64,000 nt of DNA from the NCBI GenBank assembly GCA_018398815.1, contig CM031595.1, forward strand, positions 134,053,386 through 134,117,385. The letters run 5' to 3'. A program made the position numbers and the translations under genes. Shown here piece by piece: positions 4,055-45,177 of this stretch. A model generated the notes under the pieces. It did not search any database and was not told the DNA's origin. It saw only the letters and a program-made list of their open reading frames with translations. Each line of letters begins with the position of its first letter. Within the stretch, counting starts at the first letter, position 1. The stretch is from Conus ventricosus (Eukaryota; Mollusca; Gastropoda; Neogastropoda; Conidae).

Positions 4055-4059
4055 TGGGT

Positions 4060-12100: not shown

Positions 12101-12146
12101 CGAAGACAGAAGAGACCAAGGAGACACAGCCCAAGAATGCAGCAGA

Positions 12147-12945: not shown

Positions 12946-13179
12946 CTTGGTCAGATGTTCTCAGGGACAGTTTTCATACTCCAGGACTGATTTCTGGTTA
13001 AATACCTCCTGAAAAGAGGTGTTGTGGACTACTTTTTTTCTAATACCTCGTGACATTTTAATGTCTTTTTTTTTTTTTTTTGTATAAACAGTACATATCG
13101 ATTGTTCTCCAAAGACGTAAAATGATGTAGCCTCTGTTTTTCAAAGTTGACAGTAATGACCAAGAGAAACTACGTTGTG

Positions 13180-13720: not shown

Positions 13721-13951
13721 ACTTTCAGAAGCCTTGTAAAAAAGCAAGCCCTCGTTAGTTGGAATGATATGAATACAAAGAATGAGGAGAGAAGATGTTT
13801 TGATGCTTTGTTTTGATACACTGATAAAAGGGTTTGTTTAGGAAGAAATGGCCTCTCCAGACTTGAGGTCTAAAGCTCCAGTTTTCCCCATTGATTTGTG
13901 TGTTGTACTTGATGACTCTGTCATTTTATGTCAGCGAGGACGCTGGTTGTA

Positions 13952-13967
13952 ACAGAGTAGGGGGGGC
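13952..13967 (+). promoter_or_regulatory. Polypurine tract, second gypsy element
   Basis: ACAGAGTAGGGGGGGC lies immediately before the 3' LTR, closely like the tract of the third element (AGAGTAGGGGGCAGA). Confidence 0.75.
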
Positions 13968-21540: not shown

Positions 21541-22662
21541 CTAATTTCTCATGTTCTTCCTAGTATTCCCCTTTTCTCTGATGTGGTTCCCTGTTACGAA
21601 CCGTGCTGCTCTCTTCTGAATCTTTTCAAGGTTATCAATGTCCTTTAGATGGTAAGGATCCCAAACTGAGCAACCATATTCCAGTACTGGTCTAACCAGT
21701 GTTTTGTAGCAGTCGTCTTTAACCTTTTGGGGGCAGTCATTGATATTCCTGTGTAAGAAAGCTAAGATGTTATTTGCTTTCTTACATACTAAATTGTAAT
21801 GTTCTTTCCATTTGAGACGACTATCTATAATCACGCCTAAATATTTTGCAGCATTAGTTTCTTTAAGAATAGTATTATGGATAGAATAATCTGATCTAAT
21901 TAGTGAGCGTTTGTTACATATACGCAACACTTGGCACTTTTGAGGATGAAATTCCATTTTCCAAGTTCTTTCCCACTCTTGTAAAGCGTTTAGATCTTCT
22001 TGTAGAATGCGTGTATCATTCTTGCTTCTGATTGTTCTATATACTAAACTGTCATCTGCAAAAAGCCTTATAGTAGTTCCAGGAGAGAGATTTCTACTTA
22101 TGTCATTTATATAAATTAAGAAAAACAAGGGCCCCAGAACAGTTCCCTGTGGTACACCTGACAAGACTGGTTTACAATGGGATGACGACCCTTCCACAAC
22201 AACTTTCTGCGTTCTCCCAACGAGGAATGATCTAGCCCATTTTAGCAAAGAACCGCCAATGCCAATGTGTTCTAATTTAAGCAGCAGGCCCTCATGGTCA
22301 ACCTTATCAAAGGCTTTAGAAAAATCTAATAAAATTGCATCCATTTGCTGTCTGTTGTTAAGACAGTTACTAAAATCATTGAGAGTTGTTATAAGTTGAG
22401 TCTCACAACTCCTTCGCTGTCTAAAACCATGCTGGGCGTTATTTAAGAAATCATATTTGTCAAAATGGTCCATTATGCTACTATATATTATGTGTTCAAG
22501 TAATTTAGCTGATATGGATGTAAGAGATACAGGTCTATAATTCTCTGCTTTTGTTTTGTCACCCTTTTTAAATAAGGGAACAATGCTCGCATCTCGCCAC
22601 TCATCGGGTATTACTCCCTGGTCCAGTGAAGCTTGGTAAAGTAATTGGTATACCTCACTCAA
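21541..22662 (-). pseudogene. Reverse transcriptase domain of the CR1-like LINE
   Basis: 373 codons covering nearly the whole RT: GVIPDEWRDASIVPLFKKGD at the start, NYRPVSLTSISAKLLE, AQHGFRQRRSC, AILLDFSKAFDKVDH (first catalytic Asp), SGVPQGTVLGPLFFLIYIND and RLFADDSLVY (the FADD pair), then the thumb with KYLGVIID, VLEYGCSVWDPYH and IQKRAARFV. The frame opens by shift from the upstream frame ending at 22680 and is lost again at 21541; the remaining C-terminus (RLWNSLP) sits in another frame down to about 21250. The core motifs look intact, so decay is recent or the frameshifts are sequencing errors. Confidence 0.9.
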
Positions 22663-22679
22663 TTCATTGGCACATAATT

Positions 22680-24402
22680 TTAAGAGCTTGCCAGGAACGC
22701 ATCGGGACCAGTAGCTTTGTTTTCATTGATATTGGTCAGTAACTTAAATACTCCTGCTTTGTTTACTTTGATGTTTTGCATTTCAGGGAGTTTATCATCA
22801 TCCTTTAGTCTAACGTTAATTAAAGGTTTGGGATTTGAGAAAACTGAACAAAACTGCTTGTTTAGTAAGTTTGCTTTCCCTTCAGGGTCCTGTATTAGGT
22901 TATTCTGGTTATTTCTCAGGTCTGGAATCCCAATGTTGTCCTGTCTCTTACTCCTTATGTAAGACCATAATTTCTTGTTTTGATGATCACCTTCCGAAAT
23001 CATCGAATTAACATAATTGGAGTGAGCAAGTCTACATTCTCTCTGACACCTTATCTTAATATGTTTATACCTAACCAGTAATCTTTCTGAATTAGGATGT
23101 AGTTTCAATTTCTTAAAGAAACGATGTTTCCTTCTCAACAAACGTTTAGTTTTAGTAGTAATCCATGGCTGGTGGTTCTTGCTTGAAGTTATTTTAGTAG
23201 GTATGTTGTCATCCATAATAAATTCCAAATTAGTTTTTATACACTTCCAAAGATCACTGACATTATCTTTAACACTATGGGACCTCAAAAAAAGCGACTG
23301 AAATTATGAGTATCCCTGCGCAATTTTGGTAAATCTGCTTGGTTCCAGAGTCTGATGGTACGTTTAGGGGGTTTTCTTCGAAAGGGTTGAAAGTTACTCT
23401 CTAAAAGAACTATGTCATGATCACCCAGGCCTGCAATTAATTCCTGATTGCCTAAAGCGCCTGGACAATTGGTAAAAAATAAATCCAGGAATGCCTTACC
23501 ACGAGTTGGTGATTCAACTGACTGTACTAATCCAAGGTCTTTGGTGGCATCAAAAAACTGAGTATTAATATTTTTACTGTATTGATTACCAAGTATGGCA
23601 TCTTCACCCCAATCAATATCTGGTAATTAAAGTCTCCACCAATCCATAATATTGCCTTCCTATTGGCCAAAACAATGTTAGAAATGTCTCTGCAAATAGA
23701 CAAACATACATTTTCATCTGAGTCTGGAGGTCTGTAAACTGATCCAACAATGACAGGTCTCTTATTCTTGAAATTAATCCTACAAAATAAACTTTCACTA
23801 TTTTTGCCTTGATATAAAAACTCACTGGCTAAATTCTTCCTAATGGCAATCAAGACTCCCCCACCTCTTTTTCCAAGTCTGTCCTTTCTATAAATATCAA
23901 AATCCTCCATTAAAAGTTCACTACTGGATGTTCCAGTTTCTAGCCAAGTTTCTGTTCCAATTACAACATCAATGTTTTTTTCAGTGACTAAATTACTGAG
24001 TTCTTCCTTTTTCTTAATAAGAGATTGAAAATTTACGACTATGCATTTAAGTTTATCTTTTTCTCTTAATGATTTAGGGTTCAGTTGCACTTTATGATTT
24101 GGGATTTTATCAGTTTTAGAATCAGGGGTGGATGCAAACTTAGGACAAAATTTCAAGTTTTCTTTTGGGGATCGGTCTGGTGAGATAGGGTCAAAGCGGT
24201 TGCTTTCTGAGCTGCAGTTTTCAATAGAATCCTCAAAAAGTCTTGAACTAAAGTTTGGAAGCCCGCAGGTAAAACAAGTCCATGATATATCACTATTGCA
24301 TAATGCTTCATAAACTGCTGAATTCATTAACATACATTTAGTGTGATACCATGAATTGCAGACGTCACAGGCAACTGCTTTATGTTTCCATGTGACTCTC
24401 AT
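22680..24402 (-). pseudogene. PHD finger, AP endonuclease and linker of the CR1-like LINE
   Basis: The frame below the SINE (about 24455-23527) begins with NPGP, then a C4HC3-type zinc finger: YPCGVCN, CDVCNSWYHTKC, WTCFTCG. The endonuclease follows: KCIVVNFQS, VVIGTETWLETG (catalytic Glu), RGGGVLIA, VGSVYRPP and IWIGGDFNYQ (GDFN). A frameshifted piece at 23527-23290 carries LGDHDIVLL, the SDH position with Gly for Ser. The third frame, 23288-22680, is the basic linker to RT (KRLLRRKHRFFKKLK, then NENKATGPD). At least three frame changes separate the parts. Confidence 0.85.
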
Positions 24403-26604: not shown

Positions 26605-26644
26605 CGTGCGCTGGGGCGTGTGACTTCCTGTTATCCCATGCATG

Positions 26645-27570
26645 TGTGGAGAAGTGAAGAAAAGTTATTTACGATTTTTTCAGCCATTATTACAAGAGAA
26701 ATCACTCTTAACAAACGAATGACGTCAAACGCTCTTTATCATAAAGATCAGATTGTAGATCCAAAATAGTATATGTTTCCATGGAAGATAGGTAAATATA
26801 AGTTATATCGAAACAAGCAAACATTTAAGCTGTTTTTAGTTCAAACATAAATCATACATCAATAACGAAAATATCAACGAAGAAGAGAAATCAATTATTT
26901 GGGAATATAAATTTTGACACAGTTGCTAAGGTTAGTTGCTACGATGATTTTGCTTGTTTACATTTCGTTTTAGGAACGAAGGCAAGCAAATCATCGGAAA
27001 CTTGATTAAGTTTCATTTAATAGTTGTTGGTTAGAATTAGATTATTATTGCGATTATCGATAGTTTGTTATAGTATTATTTTGCTTCGATGTCATGTTGG
27101 TAGGATGATGTCGTAGAGTTGGTCGTTAGATTTGTTTCGATGTTATGTTGTTAGGGTGATGTGGTAGTGTTGGTCGTCCGATCAATTGACGACGAGCATG
27201 TATAAAAGGAGAGTGTGTTTGTGTGTTCGGGTTGGTTGTTGTTCTTGCGCAGTTGTTCTTGCGTTGTTCTTGCTGACGGGTCTCGCTGACAGATGCTTGC
27301 TGACCATCCTTGCTGACATAAAAGAGAAGAGAAGCATTGATTCTGGTCTGGTCTCAAGATTGTTTGCCTGGCTGATCTGAGCGCTGGTTGCTTGCTGTCT
27401 CTGCTACTTCTATTGATCCACAACACCCAGCAGATTTAGTCTGCATGATTAATCTGTGCAAAGTGGCAGGCACGAAGATGAGATTGAGCATCCGACATAT
27501 ATAAGATTGAAGTTGAAAATCCTTGGTTTTGATCGAGCTCTTGCCTTTGCCCTAAGCCCACGTTGCCACA
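26645..27570 (+). repeat. 5' LTR of the third gypsy element
   Basis: 926 bp. TATA box at 27201. Ends CCACGTTGCCACA. Confidence 0.95.
27201..27208 (+). promoter_or_regulatory. TATA box in LTR (third gypsy element)
   Basis: TATAAAAG, within GAGCATGTATAAAAGGAGAG. The 3' LTR has the same site at 34044. Element transcription should start about 25-30 bp downstream. Confidence 0.7.
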
Positions 27571-27576
27571 GATTTT

Positions 27577-27594
27577 TGGTGTCAGAAGTGGGAT
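27577..27594 (+). promoter_or_regulatory. Primer-binding site, tRNA-Leu type
   Basis: TGGTGTCAGAAGTGGGAT begins 6 nt after the LTR. It is the complement of a tRNA 3' end with TTCTGACA plus CCA, as in tRNA-Leu (identity recalled, not searched). Confidence 0.8.
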
Positions 27595-27685
27595 TGTGGA
27601 TCATAATATAGAAGTAAGCCTATATTGACAGCAGACCAGACTCAGTAAGCCGCTGCGGACCAGACCAGCTTCTTCAGATTAGATT

Positions 27686-28790
27686 ATGGACATCATTGAA
27701 GAGATGATGACCATTGGCGAACCCAAGATCAACACAACACTGATGCTGGCGACCAGTTCCAGCAACACAGCAACCCCTGCAGACTCTACAAGCTGCGTAA
27801 ATTTTCAGGCGATGGCGACGTGGAGGATTTCGCCCGAGAGGTGCGCCTCATCCTGCAACTTCAGCCCATCCCAGACAGCTTAGCGGCAAGCTGGCTTCTT
27901 AACTCACTTGAGGACGAGCCAAGCAAGAGATCCTGACACGGGAAGCAGGCGAGATCAACTCAGCTGAGAAAATAATCAAGATTCTTGAACAAGAATGGGG
28001 GGAACAAAAAGATCACTCAACACTGACGGCGACCTTCTTCAGGCGACAGCTTGGTAGGGGCGAGTCTATAGGCGAATACGCATCAACACTCGCATGCTAT
28101 GGGTCAAGATCTACGAGGCGAATCCTGACGCGCCTCTCGAGCCAACATTTACTTCGGGACGCATTCGTCAACGGCCTGCACCCGGCATCCTTGAAGAGGG
28201 ACATGAAGCGGTTTACAAGGGAACACCCCGGGCTACCTTCATAGAAGCAACAAAGGAAGCACAACGATGGATGAGGGAAGACTCCATCGCCGAGAATGCC
28301 ATCGAACAGACATCACTGGGCCCCGACATGCTGCAGCGGCTGGAGGAGAAGATATCGGCGCTGACTCTGAAGACGGAAGCCCTCAAGCAACACCTACACG
28401 GCAGCATAGAAGAGCAGCACGTCAATGCCCCTAGAGTCGGCAGTAACCAGCGATGTCCCCTCCCAGAATGCATTCCCATCAGCCTTCCTTCACCACCAGC
28501 CAGCTTTCCAGTCTACACGGACGTGCTGGTGGTGCCAGCGCAAGGGACACGTCCAAGCAAACTGCCGAGCAAGACAACAGTATCTTCAAAGGCAGCAAAG
28601 ACAAAATCAACAGGGCTACAGGATGCAGGGAAACGAGTAACCCCGCTGTTATGGAAAACCAGGCAGCGGGGGGAGGAAGAAGAAGCAGTCAACAACAATA
28701 GAAGAAGTCAAGTTCGCAGCAAAAGGCTGCACATAAAGGAAGAAACGAAGACAAACCTCGCCGGAAGATGTCCGACGACTGAATCAAGAT
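27686..28790 (+). pseudogene. Gag of the third gypsy element (frameshifted)
   Basis: Starts MDIIEEMM at 27686. After a shift the capsid-like part reads KFSGDGDVEDFAREVRLIL, then ILTREAGEINSAEKIIKILE, GESIGEYASTLA and FVNGLHPASLKRDMKRF in alternating frames, the pattern of a retrotransposon Gag. A coiled region (LQRLEEKISALTLKTEALKQ) follows, then one CCHC knuckle CWWCQRKGHVQANC at about 28530-28570, then a Q/K-rich tail. At least four single-base shifts interrupt it. The capsid would assemble particles and the knuckle bind element RNA. Confidence 0.8.
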
Positions 28791-29010
28791 TAACGGCAGG
28801 ACGACACAGGCTCTCGTGGACACGGGCAGCGAAGTAACGACTGTCACAGAAGCTTGGGCTGCAAGAAATCTCAAGAATCTTCGACAAGAAGATGGCCTCG
28901 TCAAAATACGAGCAGTGAATGGGGCAGAGGTGCCCTACTCCGCCATCTACTTGGTCGACATACAAGTCTTCAATACCCTCTGCTCAAACACCCGGTCTTC
29001 GTAGTCAAAA
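28780..29010 (+). pseudogene. Protease of the third gypsy element
   Basis: ALVDTGSEVTTV contains the retropepsin DTG triplet (about 28819-28827). The flap and substrate strand follow (IRAVNGAEVPYSAIYLVDI). The frame changes near 28985 and continues as FVVKTPTEPF, VPVLLGMNVLEPC in the next frame, the GMN block near the end of the protease. The active-site residues are intact. Confidence 0.8.
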
Positions 29011-30530
29011 CGCCTACGGAGCCATTTATGAGGGAGAAGAAGGAACGAGTCCCAGTACTGCTGGGGATGAACGTCTTGGAACCCTGCCTGAACAATGCTT
29101 CAAACCTTCCTCCAACCCTTCAACTCTTAGCGCAAGAAATCAAGAAGAAGAAGATGTCTACCAAGGGCATCGCTCGTACGATCTCCCGTCAACACATCCC
29201 TGCCTTCTCTATTGCGACTATCAAAGTCTCAAGCCCGAAGACTGACTTCATATCCCTGATGGCTTCAACATCGACGCAACCACTTCCCCAAGGCCTGCTA
29301 CTAGTCCCCACTTTGCTCAACAACCACTGGCAGTCACGCTATGTCAGGATGGCAAACCTGACACATGAGGACAAACTCCTGCCTGCCAGAACTCCAGTAG
29401 CTGTCTTAGAAGCTGTCAACACGCATGAAAAAGGGCCTTTGATCCAGCTCAACGTCAACGAACTCATCGTATCAGAAGTCACTGCGGAAGAAGAAGAAAG
29501 AGAGAAGACAGAGGCAAGCAGCAAAACAAAGTCCAACATCCTTCTTCCAGACTTCGATGGCACTGACAGACAGAAAAAGAAGCTACAGAACCTCCTTGAA
29601 AAGTACTCCGACGCCTTCATGACTGACTGTACAGATCTGGGCTACACTGATGCAGTGACACATCGGCTGAAGACTACAGATGAAAAACCAGTGGCTCAAC
29701 CATATCGTAGAATTCCTCCCCATCAATTTGAAGAAGTTCAGAGTCACCTGAAAGAACTACTGAAGAAGGGCATCATCACTGAGAGTTACAGCCCCTACAC
29801 TGCACCGATTGTCATCGTCAGGAAGAAAGACGGGTCCATCCGACTTTGCGTCGACTACCGCAGTTGAACTCCAAAACCATCAGAGATGCCTTCCCTCTGC
29901 CCAGAATCCAAGAGTCTTTCGACGCTCTGGTCGGGTCACAGTACTTTTCCACCCTTGACCTTGGCTCCGGCTTCCACCAGATAGCCATGCACCCTGACGA
30001 TCAACATAAGACGGCTTTCACCACTCCAGTGGGCCTCTTTGAATATACCAGAATGCCAATGGGCCTCTGCACGGCACCAGCCACGTTCCAGCGACTGATG
30101 CAGTCTACGATGTCCGAATTCATGTTCCAGTTCCTCTTGGTCTACATCGACGACCTCCTGATCTACTCAAAGACCTTTGAAGAAACACTGGAACACTTGG
30201 AACGCCTGCTCCGAAGAATCAAAGAAAACGGGACTCAAGTTGAGGGCAGACAAATGTCAATTCCTGCGACGCCAAGTCATCTACTGGGGCACACCATCTC
30301 TGCTGAAGGGGTATCCTGCGAAGACTCCAAGGTACGGGTTGTCAAGGAATGGCCAGTCCCCACTACAACCTCTGAGCTCCGCAGTTTCCTGGGTTTCGCC
30401 AGCTACTACCGGCGGTTCATCAGAAATTTTGCCAAGATAGCCGGTCCCCTCCACGACTTGGTCTCCAGCGACAAAAGCAAGAAAAAAAAACGCCGACATC
30501 ACCACACGCTGGGCCCAACACCATGAGGAA
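29011..30530 (+). pseudogene. Reverse transcriptase of the third gypsy element
   Basis: A protease-to-RT linker is followed by QPYRRIPPHQFEEVQSHLKE, IVIVRKKDGSIRLCVDYR, then after a one-base shift FSTLDLGSGFHQIAMHP, KTAFTTPVGLFEYTRMPMGL, APATFQRLM and LVYIDDLLIYSKT (catalytic Asp pair at about 30142-30153). The thumb contains SFLGFASYYRRFIRNFAKIA. Two frame changes (about 29862 and 30235). All RT motifs are in order and typical of Ty3/gypsy. Confidence 0.9.
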
Positions 30531-30965
30531 GCTTTCAGAAAACTGAAGACCGCCATGACTTCAGCACCTGTCCTGGGCTACGCAGATTTCACCAAGCCTT
30601 TCATCCTGGAGACTGACGCCAGCCACGACGGACTGGGCGCCATTCTCTCTCAAGAACAAGATGGGCGACGCCAGGTCCTGGCCTATGCAAGCAGAAGGCT
30701 ACGTCCAACAGAAAAGAATCAGGCCAATTACTCTAGCATGAAGCTAGAATTCCTCGCCATGAAGTGGGCTGTCACCGAAAAATTCAGAGACTACCTCCTG
30801 GGCTCCAAGTTCGTCGTCTACACTGACAACAATCCCCTTGCCCACTTCAAGACAGCTTCCTGGGCGCCTTAGAGCAACGCTGGGCTGCTCAGTTAGCACA
30901 GTTCGACTTCGAAATCAAGTACCGGCCTGGCAAGACAAATCCTGCTGACGCCCTTTCCAGACTGC
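30531..30965 (+). pseudogene. RNase H of the third gypsy element
   Basis: FILETDASHDGLGAILSQ gives the first Asp, SSMKLEFLAMKWAVTEKF the Glu and VVYTDNNPLAHF the next Asp. After a shift near 30865 the domain ends RWAAQLAQFDFEIKYRPG and ADALSRLP, the classic Ty3/gypsy RNase H end. Confidence 0.9.
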
Positions 30966-30999
30966 CCCCACCACGGAAGATGAAGCCCGCTGCTACTCC

Positions 31000-32240
31000 T
31001 GTCCCACCCAGATTGCTGCCATCCAAGAGACAGACTGCAGAGTCACGCTTATACCGGAACAACACCCCCTGATGCTGAAGAAGACGCTGGCTGAAGTACG
31101 AGCAGAGCAAGCACGAGATCCAGTCATCGCCCCAGTCCTGGCAGTATTGGCCGGAAGAACCCCCCACAAGAGGAAACCGAGATCTTCAAACCCTTTGCCA
31201 GCAGCGCTCACGACTCTTCTTGGAAGACGGGATCCTCTACAGGAAGGTCGAAGATCTGCAACATGGGCCCTGCCGACAACTGGTCCTGCCAGCACGATGA
31301 AAGAAGAAGTCCTGACCTCCCTTCACGACGACATGGGCCACCAGGGAATCAACCGCATCATGGGGCTCCTGCGCACACGAGCGTTACTGGCCGGGCATGC
31401 ACGGGGACGTGGGACGTCACATCTCCAACTGCCAGAGATGCACCCTGGGGCAACATCCCAAGACTTTCACCACGTCAGGACACCTTCAAGCATCGCGACC
31501 GTTAGAAGTCTTGGCCATAGATTTCACCAAGTTAGAAGCTGCCAGCGACGGTAGAGAAAACGTCCTGATAATGACAGACGTCTTCTCCAAGTTTACACAA
31601 GCGGTACCCACCACCAACCAAGAAGCCTCCACTGTGGCCAAAACTCTGATCAAAGAATGGTTCCTGAAGTACGGGGTTCCAGAACGTATCCACAGCGACC
31701 AAGGGCGAAATTTCGAGTCCAACCTGATCGCCGAGCTCTGCACGATGTACAACATTAAGAAGACCCACACGACCCCCTACCATCCCAGGGCAACGGGCAA
31801 TGTGAGAGGTTTCAACGCTCCATGTTCAAGCTCCTTCGTTCCCTCACCCATGAAGAGAAAAGGAATTGGCCTGTCCACCTGCCGGAACTGGTCCAGGCCT
31901 ACAATAACACGCCTCACGCGACCACGGGTTTCGCACCACATTTCCTACTATTCGGGCAACACCCAAGACTCCCAGTCGATGACATCTTGGGCAACGACAA
32001 CCAGCCAGTTGAACTCGACACCTGGGTCAATCTTCACCAGGCTCGCCTGAGAGACGCCTACAGCAAGGCACACCAACAGTCCCAGAAAATCGCCGCCAGG
32101 AGAGACGAAGCCAGGCGGAAAGACGTCTTCCTCCATCCTGTCTGAAGGGGACCTGGTCTACCTTCGCAACCGGGAGAGAGGGAAGTTGCAAGATGCCTGG
32201 AAGCCTCAACTATTCAGGTCGTCACGCGGCCCTATAACAA
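31000..32240 (+). pseudogene. Integrase of the third gypsy element
   Basis: The zinc-binding domain reads LHDDMGHQGINRIMGLL, then YWPGMHGDVGRHISNCQRC. The catalytic core has LAIDFTKLE (first Asp) and ERIHSDQGRNFES (second Asp). At the DDE Glu (about 31800) a frameshift turns the expected E-R-F into GNVRGF; the frame resumes as SMFKLLRSLTHEEKRNWP, LVQAYNNTPHATTGFAPHFL and FGQHPRLPVDDILG. The C-terminal domain is DLVYLRNRERGKLQDAWKPQ and RPLAGGIDR. Loss of the Glu rests on a single indel and may be an error. Confidence 0.85.
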
Positions 32241-32536
32241 CGACGCCTACGTGGTACGACCATTGGCTGGAGGAATCGACCGCACGTCAACAGGAAGGAC
32301 ATGCTGCCAGCCGCGAACCCAGAGGAAGACTCGGAAGGCGAGGACGAAGACCCAATACCACCTCCCACACGGGAGAAGACTCCAACAGCGAATCCGAGGA
32401 AGACTTCGTAATGATGAACATTCCCCAGACTCCTGAACGGAAGAAACCAGTTCTGCTGCCTACACCGGTTCCGCTTCCTAGAAGATCCCAAAGACTTGCC
32501 AGCAAACAAGAAAAGTTTATTCTGAGAATCCAGTAA
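32241..32536 (+). pseudogene. Acidic C-terminal tail of the integrase frame
   Basis: A Pro/Asp/Glu-rich tail (NSESEEDFVMM, PVPLPRRSQRLASKQ) closes the polyprotein at about 32536. A similar serine/acid-rich tail ends the integrase remnant of the second gypsy element at 12700-12800, supporting relatedness. Confidence 0.55.
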
Positions 32537-32840
32537 TTTTTGTTTTAAAATAGTGGTTAGGATAGAAAGTTAGGCATTTCTCTTTCATAAGCAGAAAAGA
32601 GACATTTGGAGAAAGAAAAAGGAAAAGTCAGCAAGAAACAACAACCTCAGCAAGAACAACTTCACTATATTTTTGAAAGTTATCTTTGCTAAAAGTTTTA
32701 ATTTTTATTTTCTTTTGACAATGTCTATTTTATAAACAGATCTTCCATGGAAATATACAAAGATATTTTTCATCTCTCGTGTGTAGTTTGGCTACAGAAT
32801 GGCTGAGAAAGAAAAGAGTTCCTTCTCCCTGTTCCCGTTT

Positions 32841-33230
32841 TGATTCTCAGTGCCTTATTTATAAAATAAAGCACTAGAATCAAATCACCCTAAAATGATC
32901 ATAAGTCGTAAAGCTCCTTTTGTTAAACTATTAATTCCTTCTACCCCTTGATTCAAACTTGCCTTATTCATAAAATAACGCAGTTGAATCAATGCCTTCA
33001 ATTATAATTTCATAACAAACCCCATTCCCCTGATTCAAACTCGCCTTATTTATAAAATAACGCAGTTTGAATCAATACCTTCATTTTATTCTTTCATTTC
33101 GGTTTGCCTTGTTTAACAACAACGCAAGCTGAATGAAAAGAGCATGTCACGTGAATAATCGGGATTTTCCTCTTCTATTAATATTTGATTATCACATTGC
33201 CTATTAAAGATAGCGATATGAATCAAATTG
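32841..33230 (+). other. Array of five related hairpins in the 3' noncoding region
   Basis: Five inverted repeats of 41-47 nt lie at about 32841-32887, 32950-32994, 33033-33076, 33094-33139 and 33185-33230. Each has a lower stem, a conserved GCC...CGC-type mismatch and an AT-rich upper stem such as TTATTT/AAATAA. The third pairs TGATTCAAACT with AGTTTGAATCA; the first pairs TTTGATTC with GAATCAAA and AGTGC with GCACT. Stem sequences differ between hairpins while pairing is kept. Confidence 0.75.
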
Positions 33231-33465
33231 TCCTAATCTCTTTAAAAAGAATAAGAAGTATCAAATATACTCTATTCTTTTCATTCAAGGAGGACCTTGA
33301 TAATCGAGAGAGGGGGGGGGAGAAAAGTGTTGAATATTATTAAATTTTGCTTTATATTATTTTGGAAGGGGCAGTTAACCCTAATACAGGAAATTGACTA
33401 GGAAGTGGAGTTATATACCCATCCTAGCACCTGTCCCAACTTTCGATTCATGAGGGCATTGAAAA

Positions 33466-33483
33466 ACAAGAGTAGGGGGCAGA
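33466..33483 (+). promoter_or_regulatory. Polypurine tract, third gypsy element
   Basis: AAGAGTAGGGGGCAGA lies directly before the 3' LTR. Confidence 0.8.
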
Positions 33484-34413
33484 TGTGGAGAAGTGAAGAA
33501 AAGTTATTTACGATTTTTTCAGCCATTATTACAAGAGAAATCACTCTTAACAAACGAATGACGTCAAACGCTCTTTAATCATAAAGATCAGATTGTAGAT
33601 CCAAAATAGTATATGTTTCCATGGAAGATAGGTAAATATAAGTTATATCGAAACAAGCAAACATTTAAGCTGTTTTTAGTTCAAACATAAATCATACATC
33701 AATAACGAAAATATCAACGAAGAAGAGAAATCAATTATTTGGGAATATAAATTTTGACACAGTTGCTAAGGGTTAGTTGCTACGATGATTTGCTTGTTTA
33801 CATTTCGTTTTAGGAACGAAGGCAAGCAAATCATCGGAAACTTGATTAAGTTTCATTTAATAGTTGTTGGTTAGAATTAGATTATTATATTGCGATTATC
33901 GATAGTTTGTTATGTATTATTTTTGCTTCGATGTCATGTTGGTAGGATGATGTCGTAGAGTTGGTCGTTAGATTTGTTTCGATGTTATGTTGTTAGGGTG
34001 ATGTGGTAGTGTTGGGTCGTCCGATCAATTGACGACGAGCATGTATAAAAGGAGAGTGTGTTTGTGTGTTCGGGTTGGTTGTTGTTCTTGCGCAGTTGTT
34101 CTTGCGTTGTTCTTGCTGACGGGTCTCGCTGACAGATGCTTGCTGACCATCCTTGCTGACATAAAAGAGAAGAGAAGCATTGATTCTGGTCTGGTCTCAA
34201 GATTGTTTGCCTGGCTGATCTGAGCGCTGGTTGCTTGCTGTCTCTGCTACTTCTATTGATCCACAACACCCAGCAGATTTAGTCTGCATGATTAATCTGT
34301 GCAAAGTGGCAGGCACGAAGATGAGATTGAGCATCCGACATATATAAGATTGAAGTTGAAAATCCTTGGTTTCGATCGAGCTCTTGCCTTTGCCCTAAGC
34401 CCACGTTGCCACA
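33484..34413 (+). repeat. 3' LTR of the third gypsy element
   Basis: 930 bp partner of 26645-27570, followed by the target duplication CATG at 34414-34417. Confidence 0.95.
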
Positions 34414-34424
34414 CATGTTTCTTC

Positions 34425-34618: not shown

Positions 34619-35618
34619 NNNNNNNNNNNNNNNNNNNNNNNNNNNNNNNNNNNNNNNNNNNNNNNNNNNNNNNNNNNNNNNNNNNNNNNNNNNNNNNNNN
34701 NNNNNNNNNNNNNNNNNNNNNNNNNNNNNNNNNNNNNNNNNNNNNNNNNNNNNNNNNNNNNNNNNNNNNNNNNNNNNNNNNNNNNNNNNNNNNNNNNNNN
34801 NNNNNNNNNNNNNNNNNNNNNNNNNNNNNNNNNNNNNNNNNNNNNNNNNNNNNNNNNNNNNNNNNNNNNNNNNNNNNNNNNNNNNNNNNNNNNNNNNNNN
34901 NNNNNNNNNNNNNNNNNNNNNNNNNNNNNNNNNNNNNNNNNNNNNNNNNNNNNNNNNNNNNNNNNNNNNNNNNNNNNNNNNNNNNNNNNNNNNNNNNNNN
35001 NNNNNNNNNNNNNNNNNNNNNNNNNNNNNNNNNNNNNNNNNNNNNNNNNNNNNNNNNNNNNNNNNNNNNNNNNNNNNNNNNNNNNNNNNNNNNNNNNNNN
35101 NNNNNNNNNNNNNNNNNNNNNNNNNNNNNNNNNNNNNNNNNNNNNNNNNNNNNNNNNNNNNNNNNNNNNNNNNNNNNNNNNNNNNNNNNNNNNNNNNNNN
35201 NNNNNNNNNNNNNNNNNNNNNNNNNNNNNNNNNNNNNNNNNNNNNNNNNNNNNNNNNNNNNNNNNNNNNNNNNNNNNNNNNNNNNNNNNNNNNNNNNNNN
35301 NNNNNNNNNNNNNNNNNNNNNNNNNNNNNNNNNNNNNNNNNNNNNNNNNNNNNNNNNNNNNNNNNNNNNNNNNNNNNNNNNNNNNNNNNNNNNNNNNNNN
35401 NNNNNNNNNNNNNNNNNNNNNNNNNNNNNNNNNNNNNNNNNNNNNNNNNNNNNNNNNNNNNNNNNNNNNNNNNNNNNNNNNNNNNNNNNNNNNNNNNNNN
35501 NNNNNNNNNNNNNNNNNNNNNNNNNNNNNNNNNNNNNNNNNNNNNNNNNNNNNNNNNNNNNNNNNNNNNNNNNNNNNNNNNNNNNNNNNNNNNNNNNNNN
35601 NNNNNNNNNNNNNNNNNN
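34619..35618. other. Assembly gap of exactly 1000 N
   Basis: The run of N has a round length, so the true distance is unknown. Any frame crossing it is meaningless. Confidence 1.
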
Positions 35619-36760: not shown

Positions 36761-37426
36761 TGGTAGAAACATTAAGACAATTTTAATTCAAAGTCTGCAT
36801 GTGTAATAAAGCTCTGGATCAAATCTCTTGTTTTCTCTCTACCCCACACGCTGCCCCTCCTGTTTCTCTAAAAATGATCATAGGTAATAAATATGAAATT
36901 AGGGTTATGCTATTTTCAACACTTTGCTGGTCTTCAGACATAATCAGTCTTTTACTTGACCAAGTTTAAGGTGAACTAACTTGTAAAATTTTTGTAGAAT
37001 ATTTTCAGAAATACTAATGAAAGATGCAAACATATTAAATATAGGGGATGGGGGGGGGGGGGGGGGGGGCGATTATTTTTCACTCATTAACAACGCATCA
37101 TAGTGTTCCATGAAACTACACCTTTGGTGTAACTGTGAAAAGGGTGTTTGTGACTGCAAATGAGTTTCATTTTTGTAACATTATGTTCAAAATTTAATGA
37201 TTGTTGGCCGAAGCTTATTAAAACAAACAGACAAACAAAGAACCACCAAAATCTGTGTTTTGTTTGAATGGTTTTCCTTTTTGCAACCTTTTCAAAGAAG
37301 GGAAGATTGTATATTGTTAGTGTCAAATAAGACAGATTTATAAAAATTGAAAACTTATTGTGATTATCTGGGACTATTATCAAATCACCAAATCATTTAT
37401 GTTTATTGTTATATCAACTACTAATT
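36761..37426. other. No gene seen; poly-G at 37049-37069
   Basis: AT-rich unique-looking sequence ending in the target duplication AACTACTAATT (37416-37426) of the nested LINE cluster. Confidence 0.7.
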
Positions 37427-37463
37427 CCCTCCGGGGGGTTGCGACCTTGTCGTGGTCGGAGGG
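37427..37463 (+). other. 5'-terminal hairpin of the LINE, candidate HDV-like fold
   Basis: The first seven bases CCCTCCG can pair with CGGAGGG at 37457-37463. Inside, ACC (37444-37446) can pair with GGT (37454-37456) around a 7-nt loop TTGTCGT. This is the P1/P3 pattern of HDV-like ribozymes found at the 5' ends of some LINEs. P2, P4 and the catalytic C could not be placed, so function is unproven. Confidence 0.4.
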
Positions 37464-38165
37464 TTTGCGTGGTCCAGTGATCCCTTAGGCTTTGCTGGCG
37501 GGGGCATCAATACTTGGAGATAGGCTGTTTTTTTCACACTGCTTCTAGGCCTGAGAGGTGCAGATGCTGTTTGGTCTAAGCGTTAAGTGGTAAGGAGTTG
37601 ATGCCCCTGGTAGGGCTTCCCATGTCAGATAGGCTAAGGGTGAGGATCCTGACTAAGAGTAACCCGCCTTTCTCCTTTTCTTGTTTTCTGCTCCCTTATT
37701 TGGCCCTTTTCTATCTTCGTCTCCCCTTCAAGTCTTCTTTTCCACACTCCTTTTCTCTCTGTGGTCTCCTTAAGATCCGCCGCGTTTGCCGTGCGGTTGC
37801 GACCTGTGTCGGAGGGGAATGAGATCCTGGTGATTGAGAGGGCCAGCGCTCTCAACACATCACTTTGGCTCGGACCTCTCCTAGACAGGGAGTACACTTT
37901 GGCCCGGGTGTACTATCGGCTCCCCTTCTTGGGGTTGGGTCAAGACGGGCAGTTCCCCAGCTGGCCAAGTAAACCCCTGCAGTGCTCAGCTCTCTGTTCC
38001 CGGGAGTTGAGCATGATCAGGGGGGTTAGGGTTGGTTGCTTCTGCTTGTCGTATGTCTCTCCCGAAGCCTGGAAGGGGTCAAGACATTGGTTTCTTGGCC
38101 CTGGCCCCTTTAGTTGGACTCCAAGGTGGGTGGGTAAGGGAGGGAATGAAATATACTAAATACAC

Positions 38166-39463
38166 ATGGCTTTTTCAAAACACATCCCCCCAAAAAAGAG
38201 GAAGGCAGCACCCCCTATTTCAGGGGATTTCGATTCTGACAGCGATTCGGATATGGAGATACGACAGAAGACAGGTTTCTGGGCTTCCTGGCTCGTTATG
38301 GAAGGAACGGAGCAAGAAAGCCCCCTTTCAGCTTTGAGCCCATTTGCTATCCAAAAGGGCTTCAAGGTATAGCAGGTGACCCTCGGTCCATCAAGAGGTT
38401 GAGGATGGTTCATTTCTTTTTCAATGCAAGTCACACAAACAATCTGAACAGCTGCTGAAAGCAACTAAACTAGTGGACAGGGAGTTCAGGGTAACTCCCA
38501 AACAAACAGTTAAATTCATCTAAAGGCTTTGTTTCGCTGCCGGGATTTATTCAGGAGTCTCAGAGGCAGAATCAAACGGAGCTGGCATCCCAGGGTGTGA
38601 CGGAGGTGCGCAGGGTGACTGTCAAGAAGGGTGCAGAAAGATGTGCCACCAACACCTCTTTCTGACATTCTGCAACCCTGTGCTGCCTCGGTCATCAAAG
38701 TCGGCTACCTGATTGTCCGGGTTCAGTTGTACGTTCCGTCCCGTTGAGGTGCTTCCGATGCCAGAAGTTTGGCCATGTCAGAGACCGTTGTTCTGGGCAG
38801 GAGGTGTGTGGTATTTGCTGCAAGGCAACCCATGATGGGCCGTGTAAAGATCCGGCACATTGTGCAAACTGCGGTGGCGACCATCCCTCCTCTTCACGGA
38901 ATTGTCCTCTGTGGATTCAGGAATCTGCAATACAAAGGGTTAAGACAGAAAAGAAGATCTCCTTTTTTGAAGCCGCAAGCAGGTTGTGGGCAGTCAGTCG
39001 CCGACAGCTTCTTCGTATGCTTCGGCCGTTAAGAAAGTTCCAACAGTTCCAACTCGGTCAGTCTGCTGTCAGACTGATAACTTTACGTTTTCGAAGACAT
39101 TGCAAGGAAAAACTGTCAGTTTGGTGGAAGCAGGTCCACCACCTTCCAAACCCAAAGTGACTGCCCATGGTGGAGGCAAAAAATCCGCCACCCCTCGGGA
39201 CTGCCCAGCAGTCTACAACATCTGCTGCTGGGCAGATTAAAAAACCAGCACCCCTCCCTCGAACTCCTCTGTCCAGTGCCCGTGCGGGCAAGGGGTTCAA
39301 CTAGTGTGTGGAGATGGTGGAGTTGAGGAAAAAACCTCCACCGTCCCCCAAACCAGCCCTTTACTTCACCTGTTGGCAATTTCTGCCAGCAGGTCTGCAG
39401 ATAGTCCAGTGAAAAGCAACAAATTTACAGCTTTAGCAGCAGATGTTGAGGAGGAGATGACCT
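38166..39463 (+). pseudogene. LINE copy A ORF1 (Gag-like, three CCHC knuckles)
   Basis: Starts MAFSKHIPPKKRKAAPP, a basic start, followed by the acidic SDSDSDMEIRQ. A frame-shifted middle contains an RNA-binding-like segment, then three zinc knuckles at about 38744-38910: CFRCQKFGHVRDRC, CGICCKATHDGPC and CANCGGDHPSSSRNC. The C-terminal part is Ser/Pro/Lys-rich and ends EEEMT before a TGA about 30 bp ahead of ORF2. Three CCHC knuckles in ORF1 are typical of I/Jockey-group LINEs. Several frameshifts break this copy. Confidence 0.8.
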
Positions 39464-39491
39464 GATCTCTCTCCTTTTTCCCCTCTGCACC

Positions 39492-42400
39492 ATGGATAAT
39501 ACAATATTCCATTGAATATCCGTGGTCTAAATTCCAACTTCGAGGAGCTGCAGCTTCTGTGTCAGTCTCTAAAACCTTCTGTCGTGGCTCTTCAAGAAAC
39601 TCAAATTCAAAGCCAGAAGACCTTTACTCTTTCTGGCTTTAATATTCTTTCGAAACCTGCACAAACCATCCACGTTGGGACTGTCGGGCGGTGTTGCCCT
39701 TCTCCTACACAAAACTTTGTTGTATAGTCCTGTCACTCTGTCTACCTCCCTTCAGGCTGTAGCTGCGAGAGTCACTCTCCACAGACTGTGACAATCTGTT
39801 CTCTTTATCTCTCACCTTCTGTCCGGTTTGTCGTCAGGACCTTGTCAGTCTGATTAGAAGAACTCCCTCGACCTTTTTTGCTGTTGGGTGACTTTAACGG
39901 TCACAATCCTCTTTGGGGTAGTGCCGGTACGTCACCCAGAGGTCTGCTAATTGAGGATGTCCTTTCAGACTTGGATTTGTGTTGTCTGAATGACGGATCT
40001 GCAACTTATCTCCACTCTTCCTCAGGTTCACTTTCGTGTTTAGATTTGTCGGGTTTGTGACCCCTCGCTGGTCCTGGATTTATGAGTGGTCTGTCCATGA
40101 CGATCTGCACAGAAGTGACCATTTCCTGTCCTTCTACAACCTGTAATAACTGAACACATCTCTGTCTCTCAGCATCTAAATTATAAGAAAGCAAACTGGG
40201 ATCTATTTGCAGCACTGTTTCTAAGGAGTTCCAGGACACTGATTTTTTTCAGAGGTCCGGATCCAGCTGAATCACTGACTAACACTATGATCAAATGTGC
40301 TAAAGCCTGTATTCCAGTGTCTTCCGATAAACTTCAAATGCCTAAAACACCCTGGTTCGATTCAGAATGCCAACAAATTTCCAAAGTTAGAAAACGGGCT
40401 CAGCGTCAGGTTATACCAACGACCTTCGGGTCCCAACGCTCGAGCCCATCAAAAACTCCGTGCTAAATCAAGACACACTTTTAAAATCAGTAAACGTCGG
40501 TCCTGGAGAGCTTCTGCTCCAGGCTGACATCAAAACTTCCAAGAAAAAAAGTGTGGAACATCATTAAGAAAATCAAAGGGAAGAACACCTGTCCCACTGT
40601 GAACCATCTCAAGTTTTCGGATTCTTTAATAACAGAGAAGAAAGCAGTTGCTAATCTGCTTGCTTCAACCATTGAAAAGAATTCCTCCTCTTCTAATAAA
40701 TCAGTCACTTTTGTCAAAAACAAAGCCCTAAAGAAAAATCACCCTGCAACTTTTCATCCGACAACATGGAAGACTACAATCTTCCTTTCACATTAAACGA
40801 GCTGAAATCTGCCTTTCTCTCTTGCAGCGATTCCTCTCAGGTATAGATGACATTCATTATCAACTATTGAAACATCTTCCGCAAGAAGGTCTGAACATCC
40901 TGTTACAGGTATACAACCACGTGTGGACTACAGGTTGCTTTCCACCCTCTTGGCGGAAAGCCCTCATTATTCCCATCCCCAAACCTGGAAAAGATCTTTC
41001 TAATCCATCTAACTACCGTCCTTAGCTTTGACCAGCTGTGTCTGTAAATTGATGGAAAAAATGGTCAATGCTAGGCTCATGTGGAAACTTGAAACCCATG
41101 GCCTTTTGGCGAAAGAACAGTGTGGTTTCCGCAAACATCGTAGTACAGTTGACCATTTGATTCGTCTGGAATCTACACTTAGGAACGCTTTTTTAAACAG
41201 ACAGCATGCAGTGGCAATTTTCTTCGACTTGGAGAAGGCCTACGATACCACCTGGAAGTCGGGGATACTTCATGATCTCCACGATCTGGGTTTTCGAGGT
41301 CATCTTCCGCTTTTTATTCAAAATTTTTTGGCAGAACGACAGTTTAGGTCCGGGTTGGCACCACTCTCTCTGATGTCACGAGCAGGAGTTGGGTGTTCCA
41401 CAGGGGAGCATACTGTCTCCTGCCCTCTTTAGTATTAAAATCAACAACATTGTGAAATCAGTTCAGCAGGGTTCAGACTGCTCATTGTTTGTGGATGATT
41501 TTGCTGTCTACGCAACTGGAAGCCTGTACCCGAGTGTCCAGCGCAGGCTCCAGCTTTGCGTAGATAAAATTTCCATCGATGGGCGGATGAAAACGGTTTC
41601 ACCTTTTCTCCAACAAAGGCGCAATGTATTCACTTCCAATAATTTCCGCCAGTTTTTCCCAGATCTGAACTTCAAGTAGGGAATTCTCCCATTCCAGCTG
41701 TTAAGAGGCCAAATTTCTGGGAGTTATTTTTGACCAGAAACTTAACTTTCTCAGCCATATTAAAAACCTCAAAACTGCTTGCCAGAAAGCACTGAATATT
41801 CTGCGGGTCGTAGCGCACACCGACTGGGGCGCTGATAAGAAAACTTTGTTGCACCTTACAGAGCCCTGGTCCGTTCAAAACTGGACTACGGTTGTGCTGT
41901 CTACGGCTCCGCAAGATTTATCTTACCTCAAAACTCTTGGACCCTATCCACCATCAAGGGCTTCGTCTCTGTCTTGGAGCGTTCCCCACCACCCTGTGTA
42001 CAGCCTGTACGCAGAGGCGGGCGAACCTTCATTGTCCAACCGCAGGCTGAAACTGTCTTTAAATTATTATATCCGATGTTCTCAGAACCGCAGAATCCTG
42101 CCTATGACTGTGTCTTTGACCCTCCGTTCCAAAGTAAGTTTGAAAACAACCCTAATGTATTTTCCCCCGTTTGGGCTTCGTATGCAGCCTCACGTGCGGA
42201 ATGCAGGTCTAAACCTGGGATAGTTTCCGATTTTTCCAAGTTTCCGGATCAACCTCCGTGGACCTTTTTCACACCAGAGATTCGTTTCGATCTTGCAGCT
42301 TTTCGCAAAGAGTTACCAGCTCTCTGGCGTACAAGGCATTGTATGCTGACCTCTGTTCGAAATTCCCATCCTATCAAAAAGTTTTCACTGACGGTTCCAA

Positions 42401-42985
42401 GTCTGAGGATGGAGTGGCCTGTGCAGCCTACTGCCCTGGGGCTCCTTCTCAGATACTGTTGGAACATATCCTTTCGATGCTTCTGTCTATTCTGCTGAAC
42501 TTACTGCTCTGGTACTGGCTTTGAAGATAATCTCACATTCTTCAAAGAGGGACTTTCTGGTTCTGTCGGATTCGCTGTCAGCTTTGGAAGCCATAGCTGG
42601 CCGCACCTTCAGCATCCAGAACTTTTGCATTTTCTTTGAACTTTTTAGCAAGTTGAAAGCGGACGGTTACAACATTACTCTTGCTTGGGGTTCTGGTCAT
42701 GTTGGCATTGGCGGGAACGAAATGGTTGATCGTTTAGCCAAGAACGCCACAAGAGAGAAACTGTCCAACATTTATATTCCCTGTTCAGATGTGAAACCCA
42801 AAATTAACGATTATGTGAGAGACCTCTGGCTGGAGGATTGGAACACACAGACGAGTAACAAACTCTTTCAGATCCGTCCAAACCTTAAGGACTTCCTCCC
42901 ATCCACGTCGGGGGGTCGTAAAGAGGAAACGGTTCTGTGCCGGCTGCACACCGGCCATTCGTATTTTACCCTGCTTACCTTTTAA
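39492..42985 (+). pseudogene. LINE copy A ORF2 (endonuclease, RT, RNase H), frameshifted
   Basis: ORF2 opens with ATG at 39492 (MDNTIFH-like after an indel). Endonuclease: NIRGLNSNFEELQ, VVALQETQ and LLGDFNGHNPLWGS. RT: KALIIPIPKPGKDLSNPSNYRP, EQCGFRKHRSTVDHL, FFDLEKAYDTTWKSG, GVPQGSILSPALFS and SLFVDDFAVYATG (FVDD). RNase H: VFTDGSKSEDGVACAAY, LVLSDSLSALEAIAG and GHVGIGGNEMVDRLAKNA. Frame changes occur throughout. Copy A stops within the C-terminal His/Cys-rich region where copy B inserted. Confidence 0.85.
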
Positions 42986-43848
42986 AGAGTGAAGATAGCT
43001 CCGTGGTGCATTCCATGTCATGCGCCACTCACATGAAACATGTTCTTTTAGAGTGTTGGGACTTGCACGATGTGAGACACAAACATTTTACAGCGGAGTC
43101 CATGAAGATCCCTCGGGGGGTTGCGACCCTTGTCGTGGTTCGGAGGGTTTGCGTGGTCCAGTGATCCCCTTTGGCTTTGCTGGCGGGGGCATCAATACTT
43201 GGAGATAGGCTGTTTTTTCACACTGCTTCTAGGCCTGAGAGGTGCAGATGCTGTTTGGCCTAAGCGTAAACGTGGTAAGGAGTTGATGCCCCTGGTAGGG
43301 CTTCCATGTCAGATAGGCTAAGGGTGAGGATCCTGACTAAGAGTAACCCGCCTTTCTCCTTTTCTTGTTTTCTGCCTCCCTTATTTGGCCCTTTTCTATC
43401 TTCGTCTCCCCTTCAAGTCTTCTTTTCCACACTCCTTTTTCTCTCTGTGGTCTCCTTAAGATCCGCCGCGTTTGCCGTGCGGTGCGACCTGTGTCGGAGG
43501 GGAATGGATCCTGGTGATTGAGAGGGCCAGCGCTCTCAACACTCACTTTGGCTCGGACCTCTCCTAGACAGGGAGTACACTTTGGCCGGGTGTACTAATC
43601 GGCTCCCCTTCTTGGGGTTGGGTCAAGACGGGCAGTTCCCCAGCTGGCCAAGTAAACCCCTGCAGTGCTCAGCTCTCTGTTCCCGGGAGTTGAGCATGAT
43701 CAGGGGGGATAGGGTTGGTTGCTTCTGCTTGTCGTATGTCTCTCCCGAAGCCTGGAAGGGGTCAAGACATTGGTTTTCTTGGCCCTGGCCCCTTAGTTGG
43801 ACTCCAAGGTGGGTGGGTAAGGGAGGGATGAAATATACTAAAATACAC

Positions 43849-45150
43849 ATGCTTTTTCAAAACACATCCCCCCAAAAAAGAGGAAGGCAGCATCCCCTAT
43901 TTCAGGGGATTTCGATTCTGACAGCGATTCGGATATGGAGATACGACAGAAGACAGGTTTCTGGGCTTCCTGGCTCGTTATGGAAGGAACGGAGCAAGAA
44001 AGACCCCTTTCAGCTTTGAGCCCATTTGCTATCCAAAAGGGCTTTCAAGGTATAGCAGGTGACCCTCGGTCCATCAAGAGGTTGAGGAATGGTTCATTTC
44101 TTATTCAATGCAAGTCACCAAACAATCTGAACAGCTGCAGAAGGCAAAAAAGCTTGTGGATAGGGAGATCAGGGTGACTCCCCATAAGCAATTAAATTCA
44201 TCCAAAGGTTGTGATTAGATGCAGAGATCTGGCGGGTGTTTCAGAGGCGGAAATAAAAACGGAGCTGGCGTCCCAGGGTGTGACGGAGGTGCGCAGGGTG
44301 ACGGTAAAGAAGGGTTCAGAGAGTGTGGCCACCAACACCCTCTTTCTGACTTCTGCAACCCTGTGCTGCCTCGGTCATCAAGGTTGGTTACCTAAATGTT
44401 CATGTTCAGCTCTATGTGCCGTCCCCATTGAGGTGCTTCAGGTGCCAGAGGTTTGGCCATGTCAGGGACCGCTGTTCTGGGCGGGAGGTGTGTGGTATTT
44501 GCTGCAAGGCAACTCATGATGGGCACGTGTCATGATCCGGCACATTGTGCTAACTGCGGTGGCGACCATCCCTCCTCTTCCCGAAACTGTCCCCTTTGGA
44601 TTCAAGAATCTGCTATACAACGAGTTAAAACGGAAAAGAAGATCTCATTTTTTGAAGCCCGGAAACAGGTTGTGGGCAGTCAGACGCCGACAGCTTCTTC
44701 CTATGCTTCGGCTGTCAAGAAAGCTCCCATAGTTCCTACTCGGTCAGTCTGCTGCCAGACTGACGAATTCATGTTTTCGAAGACATTGCAAGTAAGATCT
44801 GTCAGTTCTGGTGGTAGCAAGTCCACCACCTTCCAAACCAAAGTGACTGCCCCTGGTGGAGGCAAAAAATCCGCCACCCCTCAGACTGCCCAGCAGTCTA
44901 CAACATCTGCTGCTGGGCAGATTAAAAAACCAGCACCCCTACCTCGAACTCCTCTGTCCAGTGCCCGTGCGGGCAAGGGAGTTCAACTAGTGTGGAGATG
45001 GTGGAGTTGAGGAAGAAAACCTCCACCGTCTCCCAAACCCAGACCTACTTCACCTGTTGGCAAGTCCGCCAGCAGGTCTGCAGATAGTCCAGTGAAATTA
45101 AGCAACAAATTTACAGCTTTAGCAGCAGATGTTGAGGAGGAGATGACCTG
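43849..45150 (+). pseudogene. LINE copy B ORF1
   Basis: Parallel to A ORF1. The expected start is hit by a one-base indel (ACATGCTTTTTC rather than ACATGGCTTTTTC), so the frame does not open properly. The body is recognisable: EIRQKTGFWASWLVMEG, IAGDPRSIKRLRNGSFLIQC, then HCANCGGDHPSSSRNC, KISFFEARKQVVGSQTPTAS, ending near 45150. The first two knuckles are frameshifted. Confidence 0.75.
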
Positions 45151-45177
45151 ATCTCTCTCCTTTTCGCCCTCTGCACC

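Follow-up and report, generated by a model that had tools for sequence, protein, structure and literature searches.

Downstream of pol, a Ty3/gypsy long terminal repeat (LTR) retrotransposon of the gastropod Conus ventricosus carries five short hairpins in a row. The element lies in a stretch of 64,000 nucleotides (nt) of contig CM031595.1 (assembly GCA_018398815.1, positions 134,053,386 to 134,117,385), which we call the window and whose own numbering is used throughout. The hairpins, H1 to H5, share one design and differ from each other by two-sided changes in their stems; H1 to H3 vary little among copies, the array is retained in a mobilised derivative of the element, and sister families have arrays in the same place. 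We tentatively propose, with slightly less than even confidence, that the five hairpins may together form a cis-acting RNA element, multivalent and redundant, within the 3' noncoding region of the genomic RNA, which would act as plus-strand RNA, bind protein and serve transport or packaging.

Five hairpins of one design between pol and the 3' LTR

A preliminary description made from the sequence alone had placed five inverted repeats in a row after pol and before the polypurine tract. All five are present on the plus strand at 32839-33228, after the likely pol stop (32534) and before the 3' LTR (33484), with fold z-scores from -2.8 to -10.1. The tract probably meant, which follows them, is internal; it lies about 140-180 nt upstream of the terminal tract that adjoins the LTR, and it is also seen in copies of the derivative. 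The hairpins are about 45 nt each and the array ends 256 nt and begins 645 nt upstream of the 3' LTR. Their starts are spaced 109, 83, 59 and 93 nt apart, as homologous hairpins rather than head-to-tail copies. Each was folded in a stretch of 49-53 nt and compared with 200 dinucleotide shuffles (Table 1); H2 in the window lacks one base of its 3' arm. The whole array folded with a z of -9.5 on the plus strand and -7.0 on the minus strand, and none of 100 shuffles was as stable on either, while 401-nt control stretches gave 0.2 (pol), -2.0 (LTR) and -0.7 (leader). The plus strand folded better by z in five of six regions tested on both strands and equally well in the sixth. When the plus strand of the window was scanned in 54-nt segments at a step of 9 nt (6989 scored; cut-off z <= -4 and energy <= -10), 38 separate peaks passed the cut-off, H1-H4 being four of them and H5 falling below it, and the lowest z of the whole scan was that of H3 (-11.6). 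Rfam gave four matches in the element at chance level (E 1.5-4.8) and none within 32839-33230 at E <= 5.

In the common layout, a 12-bp lower helix with one or two bases bulged out on its 5' side leads through a GC clamp and past an unpaired C into an A/T upper stem, which is capped by a variable loop. The resulting helix of about 19 bp is irregular, and loop letters and many stem letters differ among the hairpins. The shared layout had been described with a mismatch at the same height throughout; the design is indeed common, but the unpaired C forms a C-C mismatch in H1-H4 and a bulge in H5, and H1 of the window has C-A where 39 of 40 copies have C-C. Across those 40 copies the GCC/CGC letters of H1-H4 agree with the majority in 956 of 960 cells (four depart); two of every six of these letters are the unpaired C-C, yet they are near-fixed.

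That the stem bases differ while pairing is kept, as had also been claimed, is borne out by a natural copy that holds all five hairpins (L172). All 60 of its 60 lower-helix pairs are formed, whereas the 5' arm of one hairpin set against the 3' arm of another pairs at 165 of 240 positions; bulge height differs among the hairpins and was set from the folds for this count. Two-sided changes occur in L172 at 9 of the 12 lower-helix heights. Some of the difference between H1 and H2 comes from both arms being offset by one base, so that this count by height overstates the number of independent two-sided changes, and comparison by letters leaves five heights (1, 3, 9, 10 and 11 in our reading of L172). 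Alignment A1, which places H5 poorly, gave a covariation score of 0.369 against 0.159 for shuffled alignments (0 of 500 reached it) and at most 0.080 for slid ones. Two G-U pairs in H4 and one in H5, read on the plus strand, would be A-C on the minus strand; arm-to-arm copying would presumably have left Watson-Crick pairs in their stead.

The carrier element has LTRs that are 98.8% identical in a self-comparison of the window, ends in TGTGG...CCACA and is flanked by the target-site duplication CATG (26641-26644 and 34414-34417). Its coding part is divided among several separate frames in the open reading frame list; the reverse transcriptase piece lies upstream of the integrase piece, the order of Ty3/gypsy pol, and two frames further upstream matched no Pfam family. 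Among named proteins, those closest to the integrase piece come from Nucella lapillus (66% identity) and Littorina saxatilis (64%). The motif TATAAAAGG stands at 27201 inside the 5' LTR, and the primer binding site is one that we take to resemble tRNA-Leu. The 3' LTR also contains a 14-bp perfect inverted repeat (33783-33836, z -5.6), of which the 5' LTR version has one inserted base. About 200 bases past the 3' LTR, after CT and CG dinucleotide runs, there is a run of 1000 N (34619-35618), probably an assembly gap.

Table 1. Features of the window, with position, strand and basis
Feature	Position	Strand	Basis or remarks
Ty3/gypsy LTR element bearing the hairpin array	26645-34413	+	LTR pair, Pfam matches, target-site duplication
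5' LTR	26645-27570	+	self-comparison; end read off sequence
Primer binding site	27577-27593	+	TGGTGTCAGAAGTGGGA directly 3' of 5' LTR
pol piece, reverse transcriptase	29846-30526	+	PF00078 (RVT_1), E 3.5e-25
pol piece, integrase	31397-32050	+	PF00665 (rve), E 4.5e-16
Likely pol stop codon	32534-32536	+	read off sequence; candidate, continuity of upstream frame unproven
Hairpin H1	32839-32884	+	-18.2 kcal/mol, z -7.0, 0/200 shuffles as stable
Hairpin H2	32948-32992	+	-12.9 kcal/mol, z -5.4, 0/200 shuffles as stable
Hairpin H3	33031-33074	+	-17.3 kcal/mol, z -10.1, 0/200 shuffles as stable
Hairpin H4	33090-33141	+	-20.3 kcal/mol, z -5.4, 0/200 shuffles as stable
Hairpin H5, weakest of the five	33183-33228	+	-10.6 kcal/mol, z -2.8, 2/200 shuffles as stable
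Internal polypurine tract	33306-33327	+	read off sequence
Terminal polypurine tract adjoining 3' LTR	~33466-33483	+	read off sequence
3' LTR	33484-34413	+	self-comparison; end read off sequence
Second LTR element, other gypsy family, internally deleted	10738-15318 (4.6 kb)		LTRs 10738-12080 and 13968-15318, 97.8% identical
Sister array, different repeat able to fold as hairpins	13278-13719	+	4 R2 matches, 42-78 bits
Third gypsy-type element	1-6332	-	LTRs 1-1304 and 5040-6332, 97.6% identical; RT/RNase H-like (reverse transcriptase/RNase H-like) frame 1885-2541

Copies of the element, a derivative without pol and sister families

A search of the genome (3.52 Gb, 12740 contigs) with the 390-nt array gave 41 matches, including 40 near-full copies with that of the window among them. 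These come from the best 40 of 233 candidates scored, and copies are therefore more numerous than 40. Variants were counted over these 40 rows (the window and L009-L047; none of the loci L149-L186 treated below), with the per-base rate outside the hairpins as expectation. Over 571 noncoding sites, the stems held 34 variant alleles against 61.9 expected. The deficit was found in H1 (5 vs 12.2), H2 (2 vs 11.2) and H3 (0 vs 11.7), which together had 7 variants vs 35.1 expected. When the stem mask was shifted circularly, 16 of 570 positions had as few variants, and 29 of 570 when the mask covered whole hairpins. Singleton sites made up 19 of 196 stem sites vs 73 of 338 outside (Fisher p 0.0003), and sites with a variant in at least three copies 5 of 196 vs 22 of 338 (p 0.06).

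Other members of the family carry the hairpins, though not all of them the full set. Besides the 40 near-full copies, four further autonomous copies were found through the integrase (L172, L173, L178 and L180). L172 is complete, but L173 has lost the upper part of H4, L178 has lost H3 and the same part of H4, and in L180 an interruption falls inside H3.

The genome has 355 occurrences of the core pattern GCCTTATT-N(1,8)-AATAACGC and none of its reversed control. Using this pattern, we picked 20 loci from the first 100 of the 355 places, mostly with spacings unlike those of the window's family, and took 5-8 kb around each. One common deletion, joining ~29290 to ~32421, was present in 13 of the 20; four others have a similar gap (L155, L156, L159, L160), and pol is present in three (L164, L167, L168). 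L160, L167 and L168 carry many homopolymer changes that look like a poorly polished long-read assembly rather than evolution. What remains in the derivative is the LTRs, the leader, parts of 27570-29290 (gag, by its position) and the hairpin array, most of pol being lost. Model R1 matched hairpins in all 20 picked loci, mostly two or more at >= 40 bits; one R1 hairpin per locus is expected from selection by the core pattern, and the weakest matches are near chance. Among eight loci with both outer LTR ends, six have perfect 4-bp target-site duplications that differ from each other (L149, L154, L158, L159, L162, L165), while the duplication of L163 contains a mismatch and that of L156 is unclear. 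The derivative family was therefore mobilised, and would have needed proteins from elsewhere for this. Its common deletion, its kept LTRs and its independent insertions identify the pol-less family as a non-autonomous derivative of the element described here.

The two families were compared by majority letter between 14 autonomous rows (the window and the 13 best-matching copies with >= 500 aligned bases) and 9 of 14 aligned derivative copies, with L150, L151, L156, L159 and L166 left out as diverged. None of the 46 sites of H1 differs, whereas 17 of 87 sites before it and 16 of 55 in the spacer that follows do (20-29%). The derivative has a single fused hairpin in place of H2 and H3; its lower stem is shorter, and it adjoins H4. 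The divergence of L149-L166 is a mosaic: the LTR and leader of the best copies are 95-97% identical to the autonomous family, but 32421-32990 is only ~69-78% identical, which suggests recombination between co-packaged RNAs.

The genome was also searched with the Nucella integrase, and the best 150 of 10800 first-look candidates were scored as matches, belonging to several families. The post-pol stretches of two sister families (L179, L183 and L184; L185 and L186, the latter a family 86% identical to Nucella) hold imperfect repeats at the same place. These can fold as helices of the GAC/GTC, GGA/TCC and TTGTT/AACAA-like kind with a 5'-side bulge. Model R2, built from 18 sister units, found three or four matches in each sister stretch, and the sister core GGAATYTTGTTYAAATAACAAGTCC occurs 289 times in the genome (control 0). 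The likeness of H4 to this core (TTGTT...AACAA) was considered as a sign of descent and dropped, as models R1 and R2 do not cross-match. L169, L170 and L171, of which one belongs to the 86% family and the others represent two families at ~60%, gave no R1 or R2 match, although the stretches may lie outside elements, so that this is no evidence of absence. The comparable 3' region was missed in L174, L175, L176, L177, L181 and L182 (L181 is all N; L177 starts at the LTR). A pattern scan of IMG/VR gave 71 stretches with one match each, which we treated as chance.

The window itself contains a sister array, in the second LTR element, where an apparent integrase end and the array are left and the rest of gag-pol is lost. 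One tandem-repeat row, with a period of 57 and 2.2 copies, was reported for this array. In the third gypsy-type element, no array was seen between the RT/RNase H-like frame and the LTR at 1-1304, and neither R1 nor R2 matched there. Elsewhere in the window, a direct tandem duplication of ~5.7 kb (37426-48792, 94% identical, with shorter copies on to ~50880) holds frames that by eye resemble a non-LTR retrotransposon. Minus-strand frames at 21541-24402 likewise resemble a non-LTR retrotransposon by eye, with a reverse transcriptase, an endonuclease-like frame and a Cys/His-rich N-terminal part.

Candidate roles of the array

If the array is a multivalent RNA element, each hairpin would be an independent copy of one docking site, with the 5'-side bulge, the GC clamp and the unpaired C as its fixed parts. 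A protein, which could be the element's Gag or a host double-strand RNA-binding or export factor, would bind several sites at once, and such multi-site binding would mark full-length RNA for transport or packaging. Copies that had lost the enzymes and kept the array would still be carried by proteins of full copies. That the irregular features (bulge and mismatch) are kept while the loops are free suggests a protein reading the helix, the presence of several like copies suggests binding by avidity, and retention in a derivative that must borrow its proteins suggests a role in cis. Since the genomic RNA corresponds to the strand that has the G-U pairs and folds better, our preferred reading is a docking array to which Gag or a host factor would bind. 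An array so placed may serve RNA export, packaging or stability, the roles named in the preliminary description; the results are compatible with any of these and set them apart from a DNA-level role less than cleanly.

Several observations weigh against this proposal. The stems of H4 and H5 vary at about the background rate in the 40 copies (17 vs 14.7 and 10 vs 12.1 expected), and their retention in the derivative is uninformative because the two families hardly differ between H4 and the LTR (at 3 of 41 sites in the H4-H5 spacer and 0 of 97 after H5). Singletons are more clearly depleted in stems than shared variants, and two-copy variants are commoner in stems, with 9 at 196 sites (7 of them in H4) vs 6 at 335 flank and spacer sites. 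This pattern is not explained by selection during replication alone. The singleton test is not clean, as part of the singletons should be neutral, and the choice of best-matching copies may add to their depletion. Variants within the family show no excess of pair-keeping changes: 8 keep the pair on the plus strand vs 12.7 expected, 10 keep it only on the minus strand vs 18.8, and 16 break it on both vs 30.5. Pair-keeping and pair-breaking variants are thus depleted about evenly, which means constraint, but gives no hint that compensation continues within the family. The sister arrays have weak folds (z on the plus/minus strand -3.3/-3.3 in L185, -4.6/-2.7 in L186 and -2.1/-0.4 in L183), their local peaks (z -3.0 to -5.6) are no better than those of L169-L171, which gave no R1 or R2 match (-3.3 to -5.0), and RNAalifold detected no two-sided change in them. 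Models R1 and R2 gave no cross-matches between the two arrays, so that common descent is not established; what the sister families share is the place and a like kind of array, with neither descent nor equal structure established. The claim of selection on structure survives in part: the two-sided changes between the paralogous hairpins, the low variation of the H1-H3 stems, the retention of the array in the derivative and the repeat arrays of the sister families speak for it, but the lack of compensation within the family, the near-background variation of H4 and H5, the losses in L173 and L178 and the fusion of H2 with H3 do not.

The even depletion of pair-keeping and pair-breaking variants also fits a constraint on sequence, as would be expected if the palindromes acted as DNA. 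They would then be sites of a dimeric host DNA-binding protein, forming an enhancer, silencer or insulator near the 3' LTR, with pairing as a consequence of inverted half-sites. The core letters are nearly fixed, and the Drosophila gypsy insulator sits in a noncoding part of a gypsy element. However, the half-site letters change between hairpins with pairing kept, which a fixed half-site would forbid, and the retained 5'-side bulge and C-C mismatch break dyad symmetry. The plus-strand bias of the folds and the three G-U pairs likewise argue for RNA, and although the palindromic boxes of Sirevirus LTRs have been likened to transcriptional elements in the accessible part of PMC2829016, we hold action at the DNA level to be quite improbable. 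An array without function deserves somewhat more thought, though we consider it unlikely: strand transfer in reverse transcription would have produced the repeats, template switching would keep their palindromes tidy, and they would persist because the copies are young. Tandem arrays are common in the 3' untranslated regions (UTRs) of plant Tat elements, for which an origin by strand transfer has been hypothesised (PMC7004042, accessible part). Hairpin number is not fixed, given the losses in L173 and L178 and the fused H2/H3 of the derivative, and this fits redundancy as well as the lack of a function; the background variation of H4 and H5 and the unrelated sequence of the sister arrays also fit the latter. 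Against it stand the deficit of variants in the H1-H3 stems, matched by few shifts of the mask, and the unchanged majority letters of H1 between families whose flanks differ; moreover, the C-C mismatch, the bulge and the G-U pairs are still there, although template switching would be expected to have mended them as well. Finally, processing or editing of the hairpins as short double-stranded RNA, whether as a source of small RNAs or as a shield against silencing, appears very improbable. The helix length of ~19 bp and several T to C stem variants on the plus strand would suit it, but outside the hairpins, too, T changes most often to C (16 of 32), no Rfam family matched the array at E <= 5, and the precursor helices of animal microRNAs are longer.

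Beyond the proposed docking array of this one element, it is conceivable, though we regard it as doubtful, that animal Ty3/gypsy elements throughout the lineage use post-pol arrays of like hairpins as a cis-acting RNA device that provides multivalent landing sites. Were this so, the array sequence would turn over between families while place and hairpin form are kept, and families and their parasitic derivatives would recognise their own RNA. How Ty3/gypsy genomic RNA is selected for transport and packaging is imprecisely mapped even in yeast Ty3, according to the accessible part of PMC11381356. An array of ~400 nt that a protein-borrowing derivative has kept is a small piece for a direct test of RNA selection, and also a marker for pairing autonomous with parasitic families.

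Comparison with known elements

The preliminary description knew of no counterpart in Ty3/gypsy elements, and the literature searched does not contradict this, but post-pol arrays in plant Tat/Ogre elements and palindromic boxes in Sireviruses are known. In our searches, mostly outside subscription journals, no title or abstract opening among the papers listed named a post-pol hairpin array in an animal Ty3/gypsy element. The terms hairpin, stem-loop, palindrom, tandem repeat and secondary structure are absent from PMC12440569, and no such hairpins are described in the accessible part of PMC10886601. The comparisons that follow likewise draw on the accessible parts of the papers cited. In yeast Ty3, RNA localisation and packaging need both UTRs and POL without being precisely defined, and the structured 5' end is given as the site of the sequences for annealing, dimerization, cyclization and packaging; unlike in the snail element, no hairpin array after POL3 is described there (PMC11381356).

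In plant Tat/Ogre elements of the Ty3/gypsy group the 3' UTR, downstream of gag-pol, holds hypervariable tandem repeats whose sequence and monomer length differ. These repeats are hypothesised to arise by illegitimate recombination or abnormal strand transfer, and they seed satellites (PMC7004042). The snail array resembles them in its place downstream of gag-pol and in its varying sequence. Hairpins are not described for these tandem repeats, whereas the snail array is short and its units are hairpins with two-sided changes. Sireviruses (Ty1/copia) carry short CGG-CCG palindromic boxes in the LTRs and upstream of env, a single inverted repeat across the junction of polypurine tract and LTR, and in known cases multiple polypurine tracts (PMC2829016). 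Both they and the snail element have repeated symmetric motifs in noncoding parts, those of Sireviruses being kept among diverged members (PMC2829016), but the snail hairpins are irregular, longer than the short boxes and set well upstream of the 3' LTR. The constitutive transport element (CTE) of type D retroviruses and the musD transport element (MTE) of the mouse are structured noncoding RNAs that use the cellular export machinery (PMC3856414, PMC5767303). Like these, the snail array would be structured noncoding RNA acting in cis for the RNA of its element, here as a predicted fold; unlike the CTE and MTE, it consists of five separate, like hairpins with free loops.
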